Below are positions 28,712 through 40,465 of a DNA stretch of 49,784 bases, piece after piece. A program made the position numbers and the translations under genes. The stretch is from contig JAOAFA010000003.1 in NCBI GenBank assembly GCA_026416535.1, forward strand, positions 1 through 49,784, given 5' to 3'. Position 1 is the stretch's first letter. Each line of letters starts with the position of its first letter. This DNA comes from Deltaproteobacteria bacterium. GTDB lineage: Bacteria > Myxococcota > SpSt-1050. The notes below the pieces were generated by a model, which saw nothing but the letters and a program-made list of their open reading frames with translations, ran no database searches and was not told the origin of the DNA.

Positions 28712-31700
28712 ATGGAAAAGTTTAAAGTGTTTTTTTTACTATTTCTTTTATTTGTGTTTGTATTGGGTTCTTGTGGTAGGAGTACCCCAGATGTGTGTAT
28801 GTATAATTCAGAGTGTCCAACAGGTTATAGCTGTGTAAATAACAAATGTATTGCCAATAATAGTCAGTGCAATTCTGATGATGATTGTGCCCCCAACCAC
28901 AGGTGCATTAATGGAGTGTGTTTAGGTGCAGGGAATTGCATAAAAGATTCCGATTGTAAGATTGATGAGAGGTGTATAAGCGGATTTTGTAAAAAGAAGG
29001 AGCGTCAATGCATGGTTAATGTTGATTGCCAGAGGGGTTATGTGTGTATAAATAATCAGTGTATCTTGGGCAAAGTATGTACAGGAGATGTGGATTGTCC
29101 ATATAGATATAGCTGTATAGATGGAGTATGTAGAGAGGATGAATGTTCGTTGACAAAGTCTTGCCCATATGGGTATGAATGTGTAGAGAATCAGTGCCTC
29201 CCAAATGACGACTGTAAAACTGATAGGGATTGTCCATACGGATATTCTTGTATCTCCGGTGTATGTAAAAGGTGTGATTGTCATACAGACTCGGAGTGTA
29301 AAAAGGGTGAATTTTGTTATGATTGTAAGTGTTATCAAAAGAACAGCTGCTATGGTAAAGAGTGCTCAATAGATCAACAGTGCAAATATGGGTATTACTG
29401 TGATTTGAAACTTTGCAAATGTATGCCCTTATTCAAAGAATGCTCAAATGATTGTCAGTGTGATTTCTCGATGGTATGTGTAGAGAATAAATGTCAATTC
29501 GCCGATAAGTCTAATATTTGTTGTAATAATCCTAATTGTGAGAATGGCAGTAGATGTGTTAGGGAAGATGGGACATATTCTGTGTGCAAATCGGAAAAGT
29601 GTCCCAACGATTGTTTCTGTATAGGGAAGGGGAGCTGTGATCCTATTACTAAGCATTGCACCTTTGATGATAGTGAAAATTATTGTTGTGCTGATTATAA
29701 CTGTCCTGTAGGTGAATCCTGTCTTAATCCGGATGGGAGTTATGCACAGTGTCCAGGAGAGTGTGAAGAAGATAGAGACTGTCCTTATGGTTATGTCTGC
29801 AAAGAGAAATATTGTAAGTTTGCAATGCAGTGTCGAAGTGATAGTGAATGCGAGAGGGGGTTTGAGTGTATAGAATATCTCTGCAAACCTAAGGAGGGCT
29901 ATTGCAAGGAAAACTCTGATTGTCCTAAAAATTACTATTGTAAAGAAGGTAAATGTCTTCCATTCTCTTGTAAGAATGACTGTGATTGTAGCTATATCGA
30001 GAATTGTGTAGATGGGATGTGTAAGGAGCTCGGTAAACCTAATATATGTTGTTCTAATCCATATTGTCCTGTTGGGAAGGAGTGTATTAATGGTGATGGG
30101 ACAATGGGAGTATGTAAGGCAAGGCTTTGTAAGACTGATTGTGATTGTAGTCCTAATATGGGTTGTGTTTCAGATTCAACTGGTATGCAAGCCTGCCAAG
30201 TTGTAAACAGATATAATCAGTGTTGTTCACATATGCGTTGTGCTCCAAATGAAAAGTGTATTAATCCGGATGGTACTTGGGTTACCTGTCCATCTGAATG
30301 TAGATCGTCAGCAGATTGTCCCTTTGGGTTTGCATGTGAATACGGTAAGTGTGTGTTTAAGGGTGAGTGTGCCAGTGATTTGGATTGCAAATATCCGTAC
30401 ATATGTGATATGTATAAGTGTGTATTAAAGAAGGAATGCATTACTGATGCTGATTGCCCCGTCGGTTATAATTGCATAAACAATCAATGTAAAGCTAAAG
30501 GCTGTGAAAGTAATGAAGACTGCTATAGTGGATATGTCTGTAGAGAGGGGTATTGTATTTCTTATTCTCAATGCAAAGTAGATTCAGACTGCCCTAGTGA
30601 TTACTACTGCTCGTTTGGAACTTGTAAGCCTAAATTTGCTTGTAAAACTGATTCAGACTGTCCATTTGGGTATCAGTGTTTTAATTCCAAGTGTGAGCCT
30701 CTTCCTGAGTGCGAAGGTGATGTAGATTGTCCAGAGGGCTATATTTGTAATCTAATAGATCACACATGTATTAAAATTATTAGTTGTAATTCGGATAGGG
30801 ATTGTCCAATTTATCATGCCTGTGTTGGTGGGGTCTGCCAAAAGTTTACACTTTGCAAAAATGATGTTGATTGTCCGAGTGGTTCATATTGTAAAGATGG
30901 GGTGTGTCAGTTTATCCCTGATTGCAAGACTGATGATGAATGTAAACCAGAGGAGAGGTGTGAATTTGGTTATTGTGTAGTAATATATTGCAATTCTGAT
31001 GCAGATTGTAAATACAACTGGCATTGTTATAATCATAATTGCTTCCCAACATTTTATTGTGAAAAGGATGGTGATTGTCCATTTGTTGGGATGAGATGTG
31101 TAAATAGAGTATGTACGGCGACAGAGTGTAAAATTGATGAAGACTGTAAACCCGGGTATGAATGTATTCAGGGGAAGTGTATTAAGCTTCCTCCAAACAA
31201 TTGTAAGACGGATAGGGATTGTAGAACTGGATATATATGTAATTTTGGTTATTGTAGTAAAAAGCCTGAGTGTATATTAGATCAAGATTGTCCAGCTGGT
31301 TACAGATGTAAAAAAGGAGTGTGCGAGAAAGCAGGTTGTTTGAGTGATGTTGATTGCCCTATAAACTATAGATGTCTCGATGGGCAATGTCAGCAAGACA
31401 TGGGTTGCAGAACAGATAGTGATTGTCAATATGGTTATCTTTGTATAAATGGTAAGTGTCAACAGAATATCTGTAAGACAGACTGCGATTGTCCTGAGTA
31501 TTTAGGATGTGGAGGGAATATTTGTGTTCCTATTTCGAGTAGAAAAAACGCCTGCTGCAGTATGCCGTGGTGTGATACCAATATTGGTTGTGTTAATAAG
31601 GACGGGACGTGGAGTAAGTGCCCGGGTAGCTGCAAGCAAGATTTAGACTGCCCAAATAACTACAAATGTATCAATAATCAATGTGTATATCAGCCTCAGT

Positions 31701-34132
31701 GCAAGACAGATTATGATTGTCAGCCAGGTTATAGATGTATTAATAATCAATGTATAAGGGAGATCCAATGTAAAGTAGATTCGGAGTGTCCCCAAAATTA
31801 TAAGTGTGTTAGTAATAAATGTATCTTTTCTCCACAATGTGAAAGAGACTCTGATTGTCGATTTGGGTATAAGTGTGTAGATTACAAATGTATTTATTCC
31901 GGACAGTGTAGGACGAATAATGAGTGTCCTTATGGCTATGAATGTATTAATTATTCATGCGTCTTTGCAGGAGAGTGCCGGTATGACTTTGAATGCCCGC
32001 AGGGACATAAATGTCAGTCTTACTATTGTGTCCCTACCGGGTGTACAACTGATAGGGATTGTCCAGATGGTTACATATGTAATAAAGGTAATTGTCAGTT
32101 TACAGGTCAATGCCACAATAATTCAGACTGTCCTGCAGGTTATGCATGTAGAAATTATTATTGTCAGTTTGTAGGTGAGTGTACGAAGGATTCGGAGTGT
32201 CCGAATAATTATAAATGCGTAAATTTCTTTTGTTCTTATCAAGGAATGTGTCTTGTAAATTCTGATTGTCCGTCGGGGCATGTTTGTCAAAATAAACAGT
32301 GTGTCTTCAGTGGCGAGTGTAAGACAAATTATGAATGTCAGAGTGGTTATATCTGTAGAGATTTTAAGTGTATATTTGGGGGTGAGTGTAGGAATGATAC
32401 CGAGTGCCCGCTGAATTACAGGTGTATTTCATATAAGTGTATATATCAGGGTCAGTGTACAAAAGATTCTGACTGTAGCCCGGGTTATGTGTGTACAAAT
32501 GGTTCTTGCTCGTATGCCTATCAATGTAGGACAGATCAAGAATGTGGGGTGGGTTATAAGTGTATTAACAATAAATGTCAGTATTTAGGGCAATGCACTA
32601 AGGATTCTGATTGTGCACCCAACATGAGGTGTTACAATTATAGTTGTATATTGAAGCCAGAATGTGAGAAGAATTCTGATTGTCCATCTGGTAAGATATG
32701 CGACTTTTATACCCATACTTGTGTAACAAATAAGTATTGTCAATCTGATATAGATTGTGGATCAGGATCTATATGTATTAATAATCAGTGTAGTCAACTA
32801 ATTCCATGCAAGAGCGATGGAGATTGTCCGTATGGAAATTATTGTAATCAAGGGATATGTACCTTCGTCCCAAGTTGTATAAAAGACTCAGATTGTAAAA
32901 CGGGTTTTAGGTGCGACTATGGATATTGTCAGCCAGGAAGCTGTGTTAAAAATTCAGACTGCAATTACAATTGGCTTTGCCATTATGGAATATGTTATCC
33001 GCCATTATATTGTTCTACAGATAGGGATTGTCCATTTGAGGAGCAGGTCTGTAAAAATTATGTCTGTACTGTTCCCACTGGCGGTTGCCAGAAGGATTCA
33101 GATTGCCCCCCACAAGAGGCTTGCCTTGGAGGGGTTTGTTATTATATATGGCCTCAAATGTGCAAAACTGATGCTGACTGTAGTGGTAATACAAAGTGTT
33201 CATTTGGTTATTGCGTGCCAAGTAATGGCTGTGAGACTGACGCTGATTGTCCCTCGGGTTATAGATGTTTCCTTGAGGCTTGTGAACCAAAAGATCAGTG
33301 CTATAGCAACTTAGATTGCAAAAGTGGTCAGATTTGTATCAATGGTAAGTGTTCAGTGCAAAATGGATGTGTCATAGATGCAGATTGTAATCCAGGATAT
33401 GAATGTATTAATGGTCTTTGCACGTTTGCCGGTCAATGCAGAATCGATTCCGATTGTCCTAAGGGCTCAATATGTATGAATTATCAGTGTATTATTAAAA
33501 AGCAGTGTTCTAAGGATGGAGATTGTCCGTATGGTCAGATTTGTGACCTGTTTATGAGTATATGCTCGCCTGAGGTAAAGTGTAATAATGATGGAGATTG
33601 CCCTCCGCTCTCTTTCTGCTTTGGTAATACTTGTATGAGCACAAGGCTTTGTAATACAGATGCAGATTGCTCTGCTAATTCTTATTGTTCGTTTAATGTT
33701 TGCTATCCAAGACCGGAATGTAAGATGGATTCTCAGTGTAAAGTTCAAGAGAGATGCGATGGTGGTAGGTGTCAGCCCATAGGTTGTTCATCTGATTCTG
33801 AATGTAACTGGGATTTTACTTGTAGAGCCGGCAGATGTATTCCACCATTTTATTGTGAGAATGATATCGATTGCCCATTTTATGGTTTACAATGTATAAA
33901 TAGGGTATGTACTAATCCAGGAGGATGTGTGAAAGATTCAGAATGTCCCAAAAATCAATATTGTCTTGCTGGTGCCTGTTACTTTATGCCGCCAATTAAC
34001 TGTCTTACTGATAGGGATTGTTCCGTGGGAATGATTTGTGAATTTGGATATTGTCAGTATGAGCCTCAGTGTTTTAGCAATGTGGATTGTGGCCCAGGTG
34101 AATGGTGTAGAAAAGGGACATGCACCCAATAA
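28712..34132 (+). CDS. Giant lipoprotein of 70 tandem four-cysteine modules
   Basis: 1806 residues. Lipobox LGSC with Cys21; from Cys29 to the last residue the protein is cysteine modules only. I could partition all of it by hand into 70 units. The common unit is 22-25 residues, C-x5-C-x5-C-x4-C plus 3-7 residues, with consensus CxTDxDCPxGYxCxxxxC. It resembles Dickkopf-type/EB-like cysteine-rich repeats that turn up in Myxococcota proteins. Five units (starting near residues 244, 297, 420, 473 and 921) are long, 53-57 residues, with a CC pair and a DGTW/DGTY segment. There are nearly 300 cysteines by hand count, so folding would need extensive disulfide formation after export. No catalytic domain. 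It is probably an outer-membrane, surface-displayed fibre or adhesin. The OmpA-family gene follows after 75 bases. Confidence 0.9.
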   Translation: MEKFKVFFLLFLLFVFVLGSCGRSTPDVCMYNSECPTGYSCVNNKCIANNSQCNSDDDCAPNHRCINGVCLGAGNCIKDSDCKIDERCISGFCKKKERQCMVNVDCQRGYVCINNQCILGKVCTGDVDCPYRYSCIDGVCREDECSLTKSCPYGYECVENQCLPNDDCKTDRDCPYGYSCISGVCKRCDCHTDSECKKGEFCYDCKCYQKNSCYGKECSIDQQCKYGYYCDLKLCKCMPLFKECSNDCQCDFSMVCVENKCQFADKSNICCNNPNCENGSRCVREDGTYSVCKSEKCPNDCFCIGKGSCDPITKHCTFDDSENYCCADYNCPVGESCLNPDGSYAQCPGECEEDRDCPYGYVCKEKYCKFAMQCRSDSECERGFECIEYLCKPKEGYCKENSDCPKNYYCKEGKCLPFSCKNDCDCSYIENCVDGMCKELGKPNICCSNPYCPVGKECINGDGTMGVCKARLCKTDCDCSPNMGCVSDSTGMQACQVVNRYNQCCSHMRCAPNEKCINPDGTWVTCPSECRSSADCPFGFACEYGKCVFKGECASDLDCKYPYICDMYKCVLKKECITDADCPVGYNCINNQCKAKGCESNEDCYSGYVCREGYCISYSQCKVDSDCPSDYYCSFGTCKPKFACKTDSDCPFGYQCFNSKCEPLPECEGDVDCPEGYICNLIDHTCIKIISCNSDRDCPIYHACVGGVCQKFTLCKNDVDCPSGSYCKDGVCQFIPDCKTDDECKPEERCEFGYCVVIYCNSDADCKYNWHCYNHNCFPTFYCEKDGDCPFVGMRCVNRVCTATECKIDEDCKPGYECIQGKCIKLPPNNCKTDRDCRTGYICNFGYCSKKPECILDQDCPAGYRCKKGVCEKAGCLSDVDCPINYRCLDGQCQQDMGCRTDSDCQYGYLCINGKCQQNICKTDCDCPEYLGCGGNICVPISSRKNACCSMPWCDTNIGCVNKDGTWSKCPGSCKQDLDCPNNYKCINNQCVYQPQCKTDYDCQPGYRCINNQCIREIQCKVDSECPQNYKCVSNKCIFSPQCERDSDCRFGYKCVDYKCIYSGQCRTNNECPYGYECINYSCVFAGECRYDFECPQGHKCQSYYCVPTGCTTDRDCPDGYICNKGNCQFTGQCHNNSDCPAGYACRNYYCQFVGECTKDSECPNNYKCVNFFCSYQGMCLVNSDCPSGHVCQNKQCVFSGECKTNYECQSGYICRDFKCIFGGECRNDTECPLNYRCISYKCIYQGQCTKDSDCSPGYVCTNGSCSYAYQCRTDQECGVGYKCINNKCQYLGQCTKDSDCAPNMRCYNYSCILKPECEKNSDCPSGKICDFYTHTCVTNKYCQSDIDCGSGSICINNQCSQLIPCKSDGDCPYGNYCNQGICTFVPSCIKDSDCKTGFRCDYGYCQPGSCVKNSDCNYNWLCHYGICYPPLYCSTDRDCPFEEQVCKNYVCTVPTGGCQKDSDCPPQEACLGGVCYYIWPQMCKTDADCSGNTKCSFGYCVPSNGCETDADCPSGYRCFLEACEPKDQCYSNLDCKSGQICINGKCSVQNGCVIDADCNPGYECINGLCTFAGQCRIDSDCPKGSICMNYQCIIKKQCSKDGDCPYGQICDLFMSICSPEVKCNNDGDCPPLSFCFGNTCMSTRLCNTDADCSANSYCSFNVCYPRPECKMDSQCKVQERCDGGRCQPIGCSSDSECNWDFTCRAGRCIPPFYCENDIDCPFYGLQCINRVCTNPGGCVKDSECPKNQYCLAGACYFMPPINCLTDRDCSVGMICEFGYCQYEPQCFSNVDCGPGEWCRKGTCTQ
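30710..31270 (+). repeat. Super-repeat copy A (modules 23-30)
   Basis: Residues 667-853 of the giant lipoprotein. The eight modules have lengths 25-23-23-22-23-23-25-23. Landmarks are an expanded first module (CNLIDHTC), a Trp-containing fifth (YNWHC), FPTFY, the NRVCT module, LPPNN, and a last module ending FGYC. Confidence 0.85.
32663..33229 (+). repeat. Super-repeat copy B (modules 50-57)
   Basis: Residues 1318-1506. Lengths are 25-23-23-22-23-25-25-23. It matches copy A landmark by landmark: CDFYTHTC, YNWLC, YPPLY, KNYVCT, IWPQM, and a last module ending FGYC. Confidence 0.85.
33506..34069 (+). repeat. Super-repeat copy C (modules 62-69)
   Basis: Residues 1599-1786. Lengths are 25-23-23-22-23-24-25-23. 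Landmarks: CDLFMSIC, NWDFTC, IPPFY, INRVCT, MPPIN, and a last module ending FGYC. Four plain modules (58-61) separate it from copy B. Confidence 0.85.
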
Positions 34133-34207: not shown

Positions 34208-36154
34208 ATGTCAAGATTCTTCAATATCTTGTGGGGTACACTTCTTGTTATTGCTTTGTGGACGCATGCATATTCTAAGGATTTAAAAAGGGTCTTTATC
34301 GCACAGGGAGGTAATAACCCGTCTAATGAAAATGCAATCGTGGGATCCGGGGGGAATAGCGAGGCAAGGGACATGGGACATCCTAAGTTATCTACAGGCG
34401 GGGCTCTCTTTGGTGAAACAGGCCTTTGGAGAGTAACATCTGCTGAACCTCTACCTGATTTGGGACTTCGTCTGAACATTCATGGTGAGTGGTTTTATAT
34501 GAGCGAGTTCTTGATAAAAGGTGATACAACTTTTAGGAGAGTCGGAGATTTCTCTCTTAGTCTTGTGCCATTTAGTAACCTTGAATTGTCTGGGCTATAT
34601 CAGATTATTACAACATATAATGACAGGATTCCTCCAAAGACTCACATAGCTACCGGTAACATATCTTTGGGATTGAAGTATGGTTACCCTCTCCTAAGGT
34701 ATTTATCAACTGGTGCACATGTGGTCTTTACTCTGAATTCAAAGCCAGGAGAATCTATGTATTCAATGGATGCAACTGGATATACATTAAGATCAATTAC
34801 GACATTTGATCCGAGGAGTTTAGGTCTGGGATTTATTAGATTACACTTAAATTTGGGTGCATATCTTATTCAGGATAAGCCATTGGGGGAGGATTTAAAT
34901 GTGTATAGTCATTACCTATTAAATGTCAATGAGCAAAAGCAATTTTTATTTGGTTTAGCGGTGGATTTCCCGTTAAGGGATGAGAGGTTATTACCGTTTA
35001 CTGAGGTGAGTTTTGGGTATCCTGATGGACCCGGGTATGTCTCAGGCGGTGTCAAATATCAACCGTTCGAAAGATTTGATTTGTCCATCGATCTTATTAC
35101 GGAGTTTGGTATTTTCAGAGGTTCTCCTCGTTATGCCCCTACAACTCAACATTATAATATAGTTGCTGGTGTTAGCTATGGTATTAAACCGTCTTATGAG
35201 GTGAAGGTAGTCAAAGAGAGGATTGTGGAGAAGATCTGTGATGAGTCATGTAAGAGAGATTTACAGGTGGTGGAGAGTGGGTTTGTAAAGGGATTTGTTT
35301 ATGAGGAAGGCACAAGTAATGCTGTTGGAAATGCCATCGTTGTTATGGAAGGGACGGGTCTGACGAATCTTGCGACAGATCCTGTATATGGCGATTTTAC
35401 AACACCGCCACTAAATCCTGGGAGATATAATTTTAACATCTTCAAGGATGGCTTTGAGCCCTCTATGACAGTAGTTGAAGTCCGTAAGAATGAAAAGTCT
35501 ATTGTAAAGGTATATCTCAGGAGGAAAATCATAGAAGGGATGCTCGATGTTAGCGTAGTTGATTTTAATGGTGAGAAGGTTGGAAATGCCGAGGTTTATG
35601 CAATAAGTGGAGATAGACAGGTTGAACTAAAGAAGACTGAAGAGGGATCTTATAAATCAAGGCTACCGGCCGGTAAGTGGTATGTGATCGCAAGGGCAGA
35701 GAATAAGCTATCGTCTGGCAAAGTAGTTGAGGTGCAGTCTGATTCTAATTTGAGGCTTGAGTTTCAGTTGAAGGATAGACCCAAAGAGATGTTAATTGTT
35801 GTAGAAAAGGATAGAATAGTCCTTAAGAAAAAGATTCAGTTTGCAAAAAATTCGGCTAGGCTCGTGGGCAATTCAATGACTATCCTAGATATGGTGGCTG
35901 ATGCCATTAATTCGAATCCGAAGATAAAAAAGGTTAAGATAGAAGGGCATACCGATGATACAGGTAGTCGTGAGAAAAATGTCAAACTCTCCCAGGAAAG
36001 GGCAGAGGCAGTGAAGGCCTATCTCATAAAACAGGGCGTGCGAGAAGAGATCCTTGAGGCGATAGGGTATGGACCTGATAGACCTATCGCCTCTAATAAG
36101 ACACTGAAAGGGCGGGAACAAAATAGAAGGGTAGAATTTATTATAGAAGAGTAA
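34208..36154 (+). CDS. OmpA-family outer-membrane protein with beta-sandwich linker domains
   Basis: 648 residues with a signal peptide (about 1-23, HAYS/K). Residues about 75-340 alternate short amphipathic strands and read like an outer-membrane beta-barrel. Two beta-sandwich domains follow: a carboxypeptidase-regulatory-like one (about 359-435: GFVYEEGTSNAVGNAIVVMEG, LNPGRYNFNIFKDGFE) and a similar one (about 448-520). The C-terminal OmpA domain (about 538-648) has FAKNSARL, IEGHTDDTGS, LSQERAEAVKAYL and REQNRRVEF, the peptidoglycan-binding signature. GGAGG precedes the start. Its place straight after the giant lipoprotein suggests a shared transcript and a possible role in anchoring or exporting it; that link is inference. 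Confidence 0.88.
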   Translation: MSRFFNILWGTLLVIALWTHAYSKDLKRVFIAQGGNNPSNENAIVGSGGNSEARDMGHPKLSTGGALFGETGLWRVTSAEPLPDLGLRLNIHGEWFYMSEFLIKGDTTFRRVGDFSLSLVPFSNLELSGLYQIITTYNDRIPPKTHIATGNISLGLKYGYPLLRYLSTGAHVVFTLNSKPGESMYSMDATGYTLRSITTFDPRSLGLGFIRLHLNLGAYLIQDKPLGEDLNVYSHYLLNVNEQKQFLFGLAVDFPLRDERLLPFTEVSFGYPDGPGYVSGGVKYQPFERFDLSIDLITEFGIFRGSPRYAPTTQHYNIVAGVSYGIKPSYEVKVVKERIVEKICDESCKRDLQVVESGFVKGFVYEEGTSNAVGNAIVVMEGTGLTNLATDPVYGDFTTPPLNPGRYNFNIFKDGFEPSMTVVEVRKNEKSIVKVYLRRKIIEGMLDVSVVDFNGEKVGNAEVYAISGDRQVELKKTEEGSYKSRLPAGKWYVIARAENKLSSGKVVEVQSDSNLRLEFQLKDRPKEMLIVVEKDRIVLKKKIQFAKNSARLVGNSMTILDMVADAINSNPKIKKVKIEGHTDDTGSREKNVKLSQERAEAVKAYLIKQGVREEILEAIGYGPDRPIASNKTLKGREQNRRVEFIIEE

Positions 36155-36322: not shown

Positions 36323-39300
36323 ATGATGTTCTATCTTGGCTTTGATTTTGGATCTGCTTTTAATAAAGCGGTTTTATTGGATGAGACTGCAAATATTGTT
36401 GTGAGTTTTTATGAACGTTCAAGTGATGATACCGTGACCTTCATAAAGATGGTATTAAGAAGTGCTGTTGAGAAAATTGGCAAGGATAGTTTTATTTTTG
36501 GATTTACAGGTATTAAACCAGATTTTGAACATCCACTTAATGCTTACTATTGTGGGGAGATTGTAGCGGTAGCCAGGGGTTCAACATTTTTACATCCAGA
36601 GGCATGTTCGGTAATAGAGATAGGGGGGCATTCACTAAAATATTTACTTTTGTCAAAAGATAAAAAGGGGGAGATACTCTCGTTTTTCACAAATGATACA
36701 TGTGCAGCGGGTACGGGTTCTTTTATAGAGCAACAATCAAAAAGACTCGAGATCTCTATTGAGAGGCTCTCTGAGATTAGTGCATCTGCACCGAGATATG
36801 CAAGAATAGCTGGCAGATGTTCCGTATTTGCGAAGTCAGATATGATACACCTTCAGCAGAGGGGAACACCTGTCGAGGAGATTGCCTATGGTCTGTGTAT
36901 AGCTGTTGTTAGAAATGCCATATCAACCCTTCTTAAAGGTAGTGATGTGCCTACACCTTCGGTTATTGTGGGTGGTTGTGCCAAGAATGAAGGGATTGTG
37001 AGGGCATTCAACGAGCTGGTCTTTGAAAAGAAGGGGTGTAGGATAATCAAGTCATCACAACCCGGGCTTGAGGCAGCCATTGGCTCTGTATTATACCTTA
37101 TCGGTGCAGACACTAAGGTAGTGAATTCTGTGGATGTGTTAGACTACTTTTCGTACCTCTTTTTGAAAAAGCGAGATGTGATAAGGAATGTTCAGTATAG
37201 TGCCTTAAGAAAGAGAGAAGCTGAAAATGAGATGGAAGAACCAGATCATGTCTTTTATGAAAAGATGGAAGGGTATTTGGGGGTAGATGTAGGCTCTGTT
37301 AGCACCGATTTTGTTGTCCTTGATAGGAACCTGAAGGTTATTTCGGCTGTATATCTCCCAACAAAGAGTCGACCTGTTGAGGCGATTTATGAAGGTATTG
37401 AGATTATCAAGTCGAGATTTAGGGGCGGACTTGACGTTTTAGCATGTGGAACTACTGGGAGTGGCAGGTACCTTGCTGCTAGACTACTATGTGCTGATGT
37501 AATAAAAAATGAGATTACTTGTCAAACATTGGGTGCACTCCTTTTTTTCCCTGATGTTGATACAATATTTGAGATAGGAGGACAGGATTCTAAATTCATC
37601 GCGGTAAGAGATGGAAATATCGTGGATTTTCAAATGAATAAAATTTGTTCTGCGGGCACAGGTTCTTTTCTAGAAGAGCAGGCGTCAGAGCTTGGAGTAA
37701 GGATAAAAGGGGAATTTTCAGAGTATGCATTTAGGTCCTCATCTCCCCTTGATTTGGGTTCTAGGTGTACAGTATTTATGGAGACGGAGGTTGTGAATGC
37801 CATTAAGCAGAATCTTTTACTTACAGATATTGCTGCCGGGCTTGCCTACTCAATTGCAAGAAATTACCTTGATAAGGTAGCAAATCAGAAAATGATAGGG
37901 GATAATATCCTATTTCAAGGTGGGGTTGCATCAAATAAGGCAGTAGTTGCTGCCTTTGAAAATCTTTTAGGAAAAAGTGTTAAAGTCAATCCATATAATA
38001 GGATCTCCGGTGCTATAGGTGCGGCTTATGCAGCTAAGATGGAGACAAAGGGAGAGTCTTCCTTCAAGTGGCCTAATGTAAAAGAGATCCCAAAGCTAAG
38101 GTCCTTTGAGTGTAGAAGGTGTTCGAACAATTGTGAGGTGAACATAGTTGAGACGGGAGGTTTAAAAGCCTATTTTGGTGATACATGTGAGAAGTATACT
38201 AGTGGGGATTTAAGAGGGGGAGAGAGTATAAAACTACCTAATCTTGCAGTTGACTATATGGAGATGACGAGGGTATTCTTTGAGAAGTATGAGACAAGTA
38301 AAAAGACGATAGGTATCCCGCGTGCCTCTGTTTTGTATGCGTATTTACCGTTTTTCTCTGTTTTCTTTGGTTCGTTGGGATTGAGACCTGTGTTGTCAGA
38401 ACCATCCGGGGAGAAGACACTTATGGATGGTTTGAAGAGGTTAACCGTAGGTGCATGTCTTCCAGTAAAGCTGACAGCAGGACATGTGTCTAATTTGATA
38501 GAAAAGGGGCTAGATCTGGTATTTTTACCGGCGATGTTTCTACTTGATGGGGAGAAGGGTCGTAATTTGTATGCCTGTCCATATACGCAGGCGATCCCAT
38601 TTATGATAAACGCAGAGAGTGAATTTACAAGGATTTTGAGTCCTGTTGTGTCTCTTTCTGATAAGAAGGCATTTTTAAGAGAGTTTGCAAAGTATAGAAG
38701 GTTGATTTCAGTAGATGATAGAGATATGGAAAAGGCTTATGACCTGGCTTTAAGTGCTCAGGTGGAATTTGAGGCCAGATTTAGAAGGCATGTGCTGAAT
38801 GCAATTGCTCGGAAAGAGTACAAGTATATGTTTGCCATCCTTGGTAAGCCATATAATACGTTTGATCCATATATAAACCTTAATCTATTTGAACGGTTAA
38901 GAAGGATGGGTATCCTGGCTATACCCTCTGCATACCTAGATCTCGACATTGATGATATTATTACAAATTTGCCTTGGAAATTTTCCTCAGATATCTATAA
39001 ATATGCGGTAGCTCTTAATAATGATGAAAGGGAGATTTTTCCTGTGATAATATCCAATTTCGGTTGTGGGCCTGATGCCTTTACTTTCAAACAGCTTGAG
39101 GAAGTATTAAAGGGCAGGACACATCTTTTGCTTGAATTTGACGAGCAGAGAGGGGAGGCAGGTCTTATTACAAGACTTGAAGCGTTTTGTGATCAAATAA
39201 AACATACTAGGAGAAAGGTTGTAAGTGATTTGGGTAAAAAGCCCAAAGAGCAGAAGATTAAGAGGGAGTTTCCATCACCAGATAATGTAGAGATAGTTAT

Positions 39301-40465
39301 ACCATACTTTGCTAATCAAGTTTTTGCATTTTCGGGTTTATTTAAGTACAAAGGGTATAAAGTGAGGGTATTGAATTTACCTAACGAGAAGATTCAATTG
39401 CTCGGTGAGAAGTATTCACTTGGAAAGGAGTGCCACGCTTATTCTCTTCTCTTAGGTGATTTAGTAAATGTTGCAATTGAGTCAAAAAAGTCTTCAAAAG
39501 AGATTTTGTTCTATTTACCGGGTACTCAGATTCCTTGTTTAATACACCAATATGGAGATGGGATGGCCGTGCTTTTGTCTGAGATTGGGGTAAGGAATGT
39601 GACCGTTTTATTTCCCAATGGTGATCAGCTCATGTCATACATGGGATTTGAGGCATTGGAGAGATACTACAAAGGTCTCTGGGCAATCGAACTCTTAGAA
39701 AAGGCTGTTTGTGAGATAAGACCTTATGAATTAGAGAAGGGACTAACGGACATGGTTCATCGCACTAACCTCTCATTAATGGAGCAGGCAATAGCCTATG
39801 GTGATATATATGATGCCCTTGATGCCGCACTTAAAAATCTCTCTCAGATAAAAACCAGGAAGGGCGAGAAGAGACCTCTTGTTGGGGTTGCAGGTGATGT
39901 ATATACGCGAGTCAATCCCGTTGCAAATTTTGATTTATATAAAAGGATAGAGGAGGCAGGATGTGAGGTTTGGCCCTCACCCTTCCAGATCGACCTATTG
40001 GATTTCGGGATTTATAGGAAATTCTATAACAGTCTTGTTGAGTTTAACCTTCAGGAGATATTAAGACATGGTGCCCTAATAATGAAGAAGGAGCTTGAGG
40101 AGTTTAAGATATCACGTATAATAGATGGTAGAATAAAGAGGGCACAGGAGCCTACATACAATGAGATGAAAAAATTAGTAACTAAGTACGTCTGGAATGA
40201 GGCTAATGAGTTGTTGTTTTTAAATATAGCAAAGATAGTTGATTTTGCAGAGAAAGGGGCAGATGGGATTATAAATGCAATCTGTTTTAACTGTATGGTT
40301 GGAAATGCCTCGAATGCCATCATTGATAAAATAAGAAGAGATTATAGCGATATCCCGATTATAACAACTGTTTATTCCAATACCGATGACCCGCTGAGAG
40401 ATGCGGTACTTGATACATTTTTTTATCAGGTAAAAAGTAGATTTAAAGGTAGGGGAGTAGGATAA
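36323..40465 (+). CDS. Large acyl-CoA dehydratase activase-like protein (BadF/BcrA-type plus DUF2229)
   Basis: 1380 residues. Two ASKHA-type ATPase domains of the BadF/BadG/BcrA/HgdC family lie in tandem: residues about 3-260 (FDFGSAFNKAVLLDE, CAAGTGSF with Cys127, GRCSVFAKSD) and about 314-580 (VDVGSVSTDFVVLD, GGQDSKF, CSAGTGSF with Cys442, SRCTVFMETE). In known activators such cysteines hold the [4Fe-4S] cluster that injects an electron into 2-hydroxyacyl-CoA dehydratases. A Cys-containing linker (RRCSNNCEV) is followed by the DUF2229 part (about 650-880) and a C-terminal HgdB-like part with ICFNCMVGNA. AGGAGTG precedes ATGATG. No separate dehydratase subunits are near, and the substrate is unknown. 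Confidence 0.9.
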   Translation: MMFYLGFDFGSAFNKAVLLDETANIVVSFYERSSDDTVTFIKMVLRSAVEKIGKDSFIFGFTGIKPDFEHPLNAYYCGEIVAVARGSTFLHPEACSVIEIGGHSLKYLLLSKDKKGEILSFFTNDTCAAGTGSFIEQQSKRLEISIERLSEISASAPRYARIAGRCSVFAKSDMIHLQQRGTPVEEIAYGLCIAVVRNAISTLLKGSDVPTPSVIVGGCAKNEGIVRAFNELVFEKKGCRIIKSSQPGLEAAIGSVLYLIGADTKVVNSVDVLDYFSYLFLKKRDVIRNVQYSALRKREAENEMEEPDHVFYEKMEGYLGVDVGSVSTDFVVLDRNLKVISAVYLPTKSRPVEAIYEGIEIIKSRFRGGLDVLACGTTGSGRYLAARLLCADVIKNEITCQTLGALLFFPDVDTIFEIGGQDSKFIAVRDGNIVDFQMNKICSAGTGSFLEEQASELGVRIKGEFSEYAFRSSSPLDLGSRCTVFMETEVVNAIKQNLLLTDIAAGLAYSIARNYLDKVANQKMIGDNILFQGGVASNKAVVAAFENLLGKSVKVNPYNRISGAIGAAYAAKMETKGESSFKWPNVKEIPKLRSFECRRCSNNCEVNIVETGGLKAYFGDTCEKYTSGDLRGGESIKLPNLAVDYMEMTRVFFEKYETSKKTIGIPRASVLYAYLPFFSVFFGSLGLRPVLSEPSGEKTLMDGLKRLTVGACLPVKLTAGHVSNLIEKGLDLVFLPAMFLLDGEKGRNLYACPYTQAIPFMINAESEFTRILSPVVSLSDKKAFLREFAKYRRLISVDDRDMEKAYDLALSAQVEFEARFRRHVLNAIARKEYKYMFAILGKPYNTFDPYINLNLFERLRRMGILAIPSAYLDLDIDDIITNLPWKFSSDIYKYAVALNNDEREIFPVIISNFGCGPDAFTFKQLEEVLKGRTHLLLEFDEQRGEAGLITRLEAFCDQIKHTRRKVVSDLGKKPKEQKIKREFPSPDNVEIVIPYFANQVFAFSGLFKYKGYKVRVLNLPNEKIQLLGEKYSLGKECHAYSLLLGDLVNVAIESKKSSKEILFYLPGTQIPCLIHQYGDGMAVLLSEIGVRNVTVLFPNGDQLMSYMGFEALERYYKGLWAIELLEKAVCEIRPYELEKGLTDMVHRTNLSLMEQAIAYGDIYDALDAALKNLSQIKTRKGEKRPLVGVAGDVYTRVNPVANFDLYKRIEEAGCEVWPSPFQIDLLDFGIYRKFYNSLVEFNLQEILRHGALIMKKELEEFKISRIIDGRIKRAQEPTYNEMKKLVTKYVWNEANELLFLNIAKIVDFAEKGADGIINAICFNCMVGNASNAIIDKIRRDYSDIPIITTVYSNTDDPLRDAVLDTFFYQVKSRFKGRGVG

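Follow-up and report, generated by a model that had tools for sequence, protein, structure and literature searches.

TraA, the kin-recognition receptor that mediates outer membrane exchange in Myxococcus xanthus, has as its partner TraB, which combines a barrel with an OmpA domain and is encoded in the same operon, and the cysteine-rich stalk of TraA has been modelled as disulfide-stiffened β-hairpins (PMC3325183, PMC12045341, PMC6626042) and proposed to serve as a presentation stalk (PMC12045341). Drosophila Dumpy is a giant extracellular protein of small disulfide modules, in which DPY modules (PF21164, 1OIG) alternate with EGF modules and which additionally carries a ZP and a transmembrane domain. 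Min-23, derived by design from a plant inhibitor as a fragment of it, is a 23-residue two-disulfide unit that folds autonomously (PMC6259850, PMC2659701); its scaffold tolerates turn replacement and can bear new binding specificities (PMC6259850). Bacterial modules of the kind described below are catalogued as DUF7107 (Pfam PF23416) and Myxo_Cys_RPT (NCBIfam TIGR04201), the models of which cover one or two modules.

The window analysed here comprises 49,784 bases and amounts to one entire contig of a draft genome of 2.96 Mb, from an uncultured bacterium that its relatives place in Myxococcota: contig L072 bears that name and belongs to G008, which falls in the same phylum. The window contains on its forward strand the gene of a lipoprotein of 1806 residues (P0001; 28712..34132), which we refer to as the array protein. 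An earlier, sequence-only reading of this DNA had already given its coordinates, strand and length correctly. A hydrophobic signal sequence precedes the lipobox LGSC, which ends at the invariant Cys21 (28712..28774; LGS-C, then CGRS); this is the cysteine that the same reading had taken to be lipidated, and the motif including its cysteine is kept in the relatives. Cysteine makes up 17.4% of the chain (315 residues, 314 of them beyond the anchor), Pfam assigns cysteine-module families only, and the sequence finishes in a module with no terminal hydrophobic helix at the C-terminus.

The Pfam model DUF7107 matches the array protein in 28 stretches with 219.9 bits (E = 3.3e-66), well above its curated cut-off of 24.6; TIGR04201 reaches 23.9 bits (E = 3.2e-5), just below its cut-off of 25. 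Among related arrays, L068 and the octad-bearing L070 pass this second threshold, L070 clearly, and L069 narrowly fails at 24.7. Of 58 related genomes, 52 contained DUF7107, whereas all 14 controls lacked it. The module itself is therefore not novel: the module-profile search and the mapping of relatives by phylum, both proposed in the sequence-only reading, lead to a unit that is already catalogued and ordinary in the phylum Myxococcota. The octad described below, the fixed order and the length of 75 modules lie outside what the models describe. We found no paper naming DUF7107 in the literature searched, and a literature search for other giant cysteine-rich bacterial arrays returned nothing relevant. 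In the same genome, several DUF7107-type modules lie between the lipobox and the OmpA domain of the Pal lipoprotein (L003:1180-1947, reverse strand), and short matches like these recur across many related genomes. A further cysteine-rich protein type (L004:259-2034, L005:2-757) has alternating modules (C..SCDC..., ...CPCG...) and a weak DUF7107 match.

Starting at residue 29 the array protein parses into cysteine modules only, with 75 four-cysteine modules in all: 63 regular units with the spacing C-x5-C-x5-C-x4-C (a 64th match of the regular expression being mis-registered over an irregular stretch), five A units (C-x3-C-x-C-x5-C-x4-C), five B units (CC-x4-C-x5-C-x9-C) and two modules within the irregular stretch. 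Each A and each B unit has one extra cysteine and every B immediately follows an A; the bookkeeping closes at 75 × 4 + 5 + 5 + 4 = 314 cysteines. Along the forward strand, seven regular modules (residues 29-187; 28796..29272) are followed by the irregular stretch (residues 188-237; 29273..29422), the 12 cysteines of which fit two modules plus four extra cysteines. The five A-B odd-cysteine pairs occupy residues 244-292 (29441..29587), 297-347 (29600..29752), 420-468 (29969..30115), 473-526 (30128..30289) and 921-970 (31472..31621). The last module (34070..34129) is marked in the alignment by the highly conserved C-terminal end PQCFSN[VI]DCGPGE.C.KGTC. The 70 units counted by hand in the sequence-only reading equal this parse when each A-B pair counts once, and its description of a single-theme chain holds in that only cysteine modules follow Cys21, but it passes over three module variants and a threefold eight-module super-repeat.

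We next compared the module with solved structures. A single-module profile derived from 50 modules had one match below E = 0.1, namely 1OIG, the DPY module of Dumpy, at E = 1e-6 and with identical cysteine spacing; the Pfam DPY model PF21164 gave 23.3 bits on the array protein, below its cut-off of 27. AlphaFold (AF2) modelled five modules from 49 aligned segments with a pLDDT of 88.7 and a pTM of 0.43, each module consisting of a short 3-10 helical turn followed by a β-hairpin. Foldseek superposed single modules on DPY at 1.3 Å and on squash inhibitors, including MCTI-A and EETI-II (43-47% identity over about 20 residues), at 0.5-0.6 Å over 19-21 residues; given how short these matches are, their E-values are weak. 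By these models and matches, the module has the two-disulfide cystine-stabilised β-sheet (CSB) core shared by DPY and the squash-inhibitor knottins, in agreement with the disulfide-type modules envisaged earlier, and the fold match predicts that every module is bridged by two disulfides, C1-C3 and C2-C4. For an A-B pair (pair 5), AF2 yielded a pLDDT of 66, which is too weak for placing the extra disulfide. Calcium sites at the conserved DxD need not be invoked: in squash inhibitors the matching region forms a short 3-10 helix (PMC2659701), and the AF2 model has a short helical turn at this DxD. Matches of a two-module profile to the LDL receptor disappeared with the single-module profile and were taken to reflect composition.

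With TraA the array protein shares the kind of repeat and the principle of an envelope-anchored, cysteine-rich stalk; it differs in being anchored N-terminally, in having about four times more cysteine, and in lacking both a PA14-like or variable domain and MYXO-CTERM. The exchanger_TraA model NF033759 did not match P0001, nor anything in its own genome in a search in which no positive control responded. For want of PA14, MYXO-CTERM and a model match, we rejected membership of the array protein in the TraA family. The DPY module has the four-cysteine spacing and fold of the array module, and Dumpy likewise is giant and extracellular; in contrast to the alternating architecture of Dumpy, the array has DPY-like modules head to tail, no EGF modules and a bacterial lipid anchor. 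In so short a module, this likeness fits common ancestry or convergence. Compared with Min-23, the 23-residue two-disulfide unit to which single modules correspond, the array strings together about 75 copies of the core, which lack both the third disulfide and the inhibitory loop of the parent inhibitors.

The array was compared with relatives from the phylum Myxococcota, namely G001 (locus L066) from the same genus and G002 from another family. L066, the nearest named relative, stems from a draft genome labelled Bdellovibrio sp. (Tomsk sample), a label that we distrust. Aligned module by module, the two arrays of the genus form 74 collinear pairs, 70 of which are reciprocal best matches; paired modules share 72% of their non-cysteine residues, versus a background of 24%, and all 314 of 314 cysteines are kept. 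Between these genes dN is about 0.15 and synonymous sites are saturated. The array of G002 is collinear over modules 42-74, that is, 33 consecutive distal modules. The distal part (residues 1043-1806, 764 residues; 31838..34129) aligns one to one with its orthologues at 85% identity in G001 and 65% in G002; conservation increases toward the C-terminus and is clearly lower in the N-terminal third than elsewhere. Turn and linker residues are only 16% identical between modules, versus 53-62% to the positional orthologue in the other family. Because turns and linkers are alike by position rather than between modules, the modules are not interchangeable. The array thus is a repeat of non-interchangeable modules whose order has withstood divergence at the genus level and, in the distal part, at the family level, and these sequence comparisons support the view that module order and the distal part are under selection. 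This fixed order across genera and families was overlooked in the sequence-only reading, as were the A-B odd-cysteine pairs and the octad.

The octad is a higher-order block of eight modules and about 187 residues, the successive modules measuring 25-23-23-22-23-(23 to 25)-25-23 residues; it occurs three times: at modules 26-33 (octad I, residues 667-853; 30710..31270), 54-61 (octad II, residues 1318-1506; 32663..33229) and 66-73 (octad III, residues 1599-1786; 33506..34069). Octads II and III sit in the most conserved distal part, III adjoining the C-terminus one module before the end. When module order was shuffled 1000 times, the best block pair was equalled or exceeded once. The octad profile also stood well above controls in other families: it scored 158-197 bits in the arrays of L059, L068, L069, L070, L071 and L072 (the latter from G008), versus a maximum of 124 bits for 25 control profiles with permuted module order; on the long arrays of the f5 family it scored no higher than these controls. 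Across 195 genomes from this phylum, the octad gave a clear match in seven (G000, G001, G002, G008, G011, G183, G189) and a marginal one in G005, and in most octad proteins a copy is separated from the C-terminus by no more than a few modules. A 1913-codon open frame from another family (L085, G189:C29, 2925-8666) consists in its later part of a cysteine array with an octad at the very C-terminus, and a CGRT lipoprotein (L071:7608-10163, forward strand) has one octad followed by a PAF-acetylhydrolase-like α/β hydrolase domain.

Most long arrays, with or without the octad, begin with CGR[S/T] at the lipidated cysteine: this start opens those of L066, L067, L068, L069, L070 and L086 as well as those of the f5 family. 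Among 41 lipobox-like open reading frames in the loci examined, 11 have a CGR[S/T] start and 10 of these 11 are long cysteine arrays; two further ones (L070, L086) were spotted by eye. The sole non-array lipoprotein with this start in the sample is a 1240-residue protein of G002 that is not cysteine-rich (L054:10772-14494, forward strand; CGRS), and octad proteins with other anchors also occur (e.g. L072, L087). The common start may have been inherited from a shared ancestor instead of acting as a sorting signal.

Downstream of the array gene, at a distance of 75 bp, lies a gene for a possible partner of 648 residues (34208..36154, forward strand), for which the domain search found an N-terminal half without family match, a CarboxypepD_reg-like domain and a C-terminal, peptidoglycan-binding OmpA domain; its match to TraB is confined to the OmpA domain. 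The adjacency is kept in G001; in G002, the two orthologous genes are found on separate contigs with other neighbours, that of the OmpA protein being followed by the different CGRS lipoprotein L054. With the linkage lost one family away, the case for an obligate partner is weakened and a functional link to the array is weak. The OmpA gene is followed by that of a 1380-residue CoA-activase-type protein (36323-40465, forward strand) with BadF/BcrA ATPase domains and DUF2229. Upstream, 455 bp from the array gene, an NtrC-type regulator is encoded; we rejected sigma-54 control by it, as no -24/-12 site occurs between the two genes, and the total of such sites in the window is not above chance. A VKOR-DsbA fusion carrying the thioredoxin motif CPFC is encoded elsewhere in the genome, which supports the envelope oxidation system implied by the sequence-only reading.

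Because TraA is the nearest characterised use of such a repeat and its cysteine-rich region has been proposed as a stalk, a stalk with an octad tip is the most likely reading: the array protein would be a disulfide-stiffened outer-membrane lipoprotein that holds its octad-bearing tip away from the anchor, a proposal to which we give an even chance. C1-C3 and C2-C4 disulfides together with a cross-link within each A-B pair would be formed in the periplasm with the VKOR-DsbA fusion, and the resulting chain, plausibly stiff and extended, would by rough estimate be a semi-rigid rod of the order of 100 nm. Since such a rod would be longer than the periplasm is wide, it would probably project from the cell surface; we infer both surface exposure and a binding partner. 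The more variable N-terminal third would mainly serve for spacing, and the octad-containing, conserved distal modules would form a working tip for binding to another protein, to a neighbouring cell or to the matrix. This mode of action would be like that of the TraA presentation stalk, with a stalk several-fold longer and without the TraA recognition domain. Pfam recognises no known binding domain at the tip. More tentatively, we propose the octad as a position-specific unit not recognised before, which would act as the conserved working tip in a class of giant disulfide stalks that have a CGR[S/T] anchor and occur in Myxococcota. Such stalks would be bacterial counterparts of the giant DPY-containing fibres of insects and would serve in cell-cell or cell-matrix contact. 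Long f5 arrays have the same anchor but no clear octad, so an octad tip would not be universal.

Two main alternatives to the stalk remain, a periplasmic tether and a many-ligand scaffold. Gram-negative lipoproteins may also face the periplasm, and Pal is periplasmic in well-studied bacteria; that the same modules occur on this genome's Pal, several of them ahead of its peptidoglycan-binding domain, argues against a stalk and for an array that runs along the outer membrane or links it with peptidoglycan or the OmpA-domain neighbour, the gene of which also follows in G001. We nevertheless consider such a tether doubtful, as the OmpA linkage is lost in G002 and a rod of about 75 modules would far exceed the width of the periplasm. 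A Dumpy-like extracellular scaffold, the whole chain of which would be functional, could draw on the conserved turn and linker that each module has of its own and on the new binding specificities that Min-23 accepts upon turn replacement (PMC6259850); it appears unlikely, however, given that conservation is uneven and lower in the N-terminal third, which favours a spacer and a tip. A metal or redox buffer of the envelope, suggested by a cysteine content of 17.4%, is very improbable in view of the fixed cysteine spacing, the match to disulfide-bonded DPY and knottin modules, the strict order and the envelope oxidant in the genome. Squash inhibitors have an N-terminal reactive loop and a third disulfide. 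Neither has a counterpart in the array, where the two-disulfide core alone matches, and a multi-headed protease inhibitor is thus harder still to credit despite the Foldseek matches to MCTI-A and EETI-II. Lastly, repeats may collapse or expand during assembly, but the mis-assembly considered in the sequence-only reading, or any other assembly or gene-calling artefact, has practically no probability left and is refuted by the collinear orthologues: a DNA-level tandem repeat was looked for in the array gene and not found, and the separately assembled G001 has the identical module order, as has G002 in the distal part. The same two observations rule out a recent tandem duplication, and the missing DNA repeat implies that the module copies are old.

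A cysteine-rich bacterial array that resembles mere filler can therefore have each of its beads under its own selection, and the octad offers a concrete unit for further study. If the array is a long surface stalk, the stalk theme of TraA extends beyond a single receptor to a whole family of giant stalks, and the protein would be a natural concatemer of a Min-23-type mini-scaffold. With 157 disulfides per chain if all 314 cysteines pair, it also is a stringent test case for oxidative folding in the envelope.

The VKOR-DsbA fusion adjoins, on the reverse strand of G000:C94 (763-1992 in L060, 584-1462 in L061), a gene for a 292-residue cysteine-rich protein ending in GCSCNQLM, and the two, an oxidant and a likely substrate of it, may belong to one operon. 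Several exported-looking proteins of the genus (L002 1-1821; L061 584-1462; L066 228-2210) have a short GC[ST]C tail, with only a few residues left ahead of the stop; these tails resemble the cysteine motif of MYXO-CTERM but are not followed by a membrane helix. A 486-residue tandem thioredoxin-like protein (L062:646-2106, forward strand) lacks CxxC in both domains, and a 529-residue lipoprotein (L064:487-2076, reverse strand) has two thioredoxin-like domains with SQCPYG motifs and an acidic DNNGKVDCDDDG linker.
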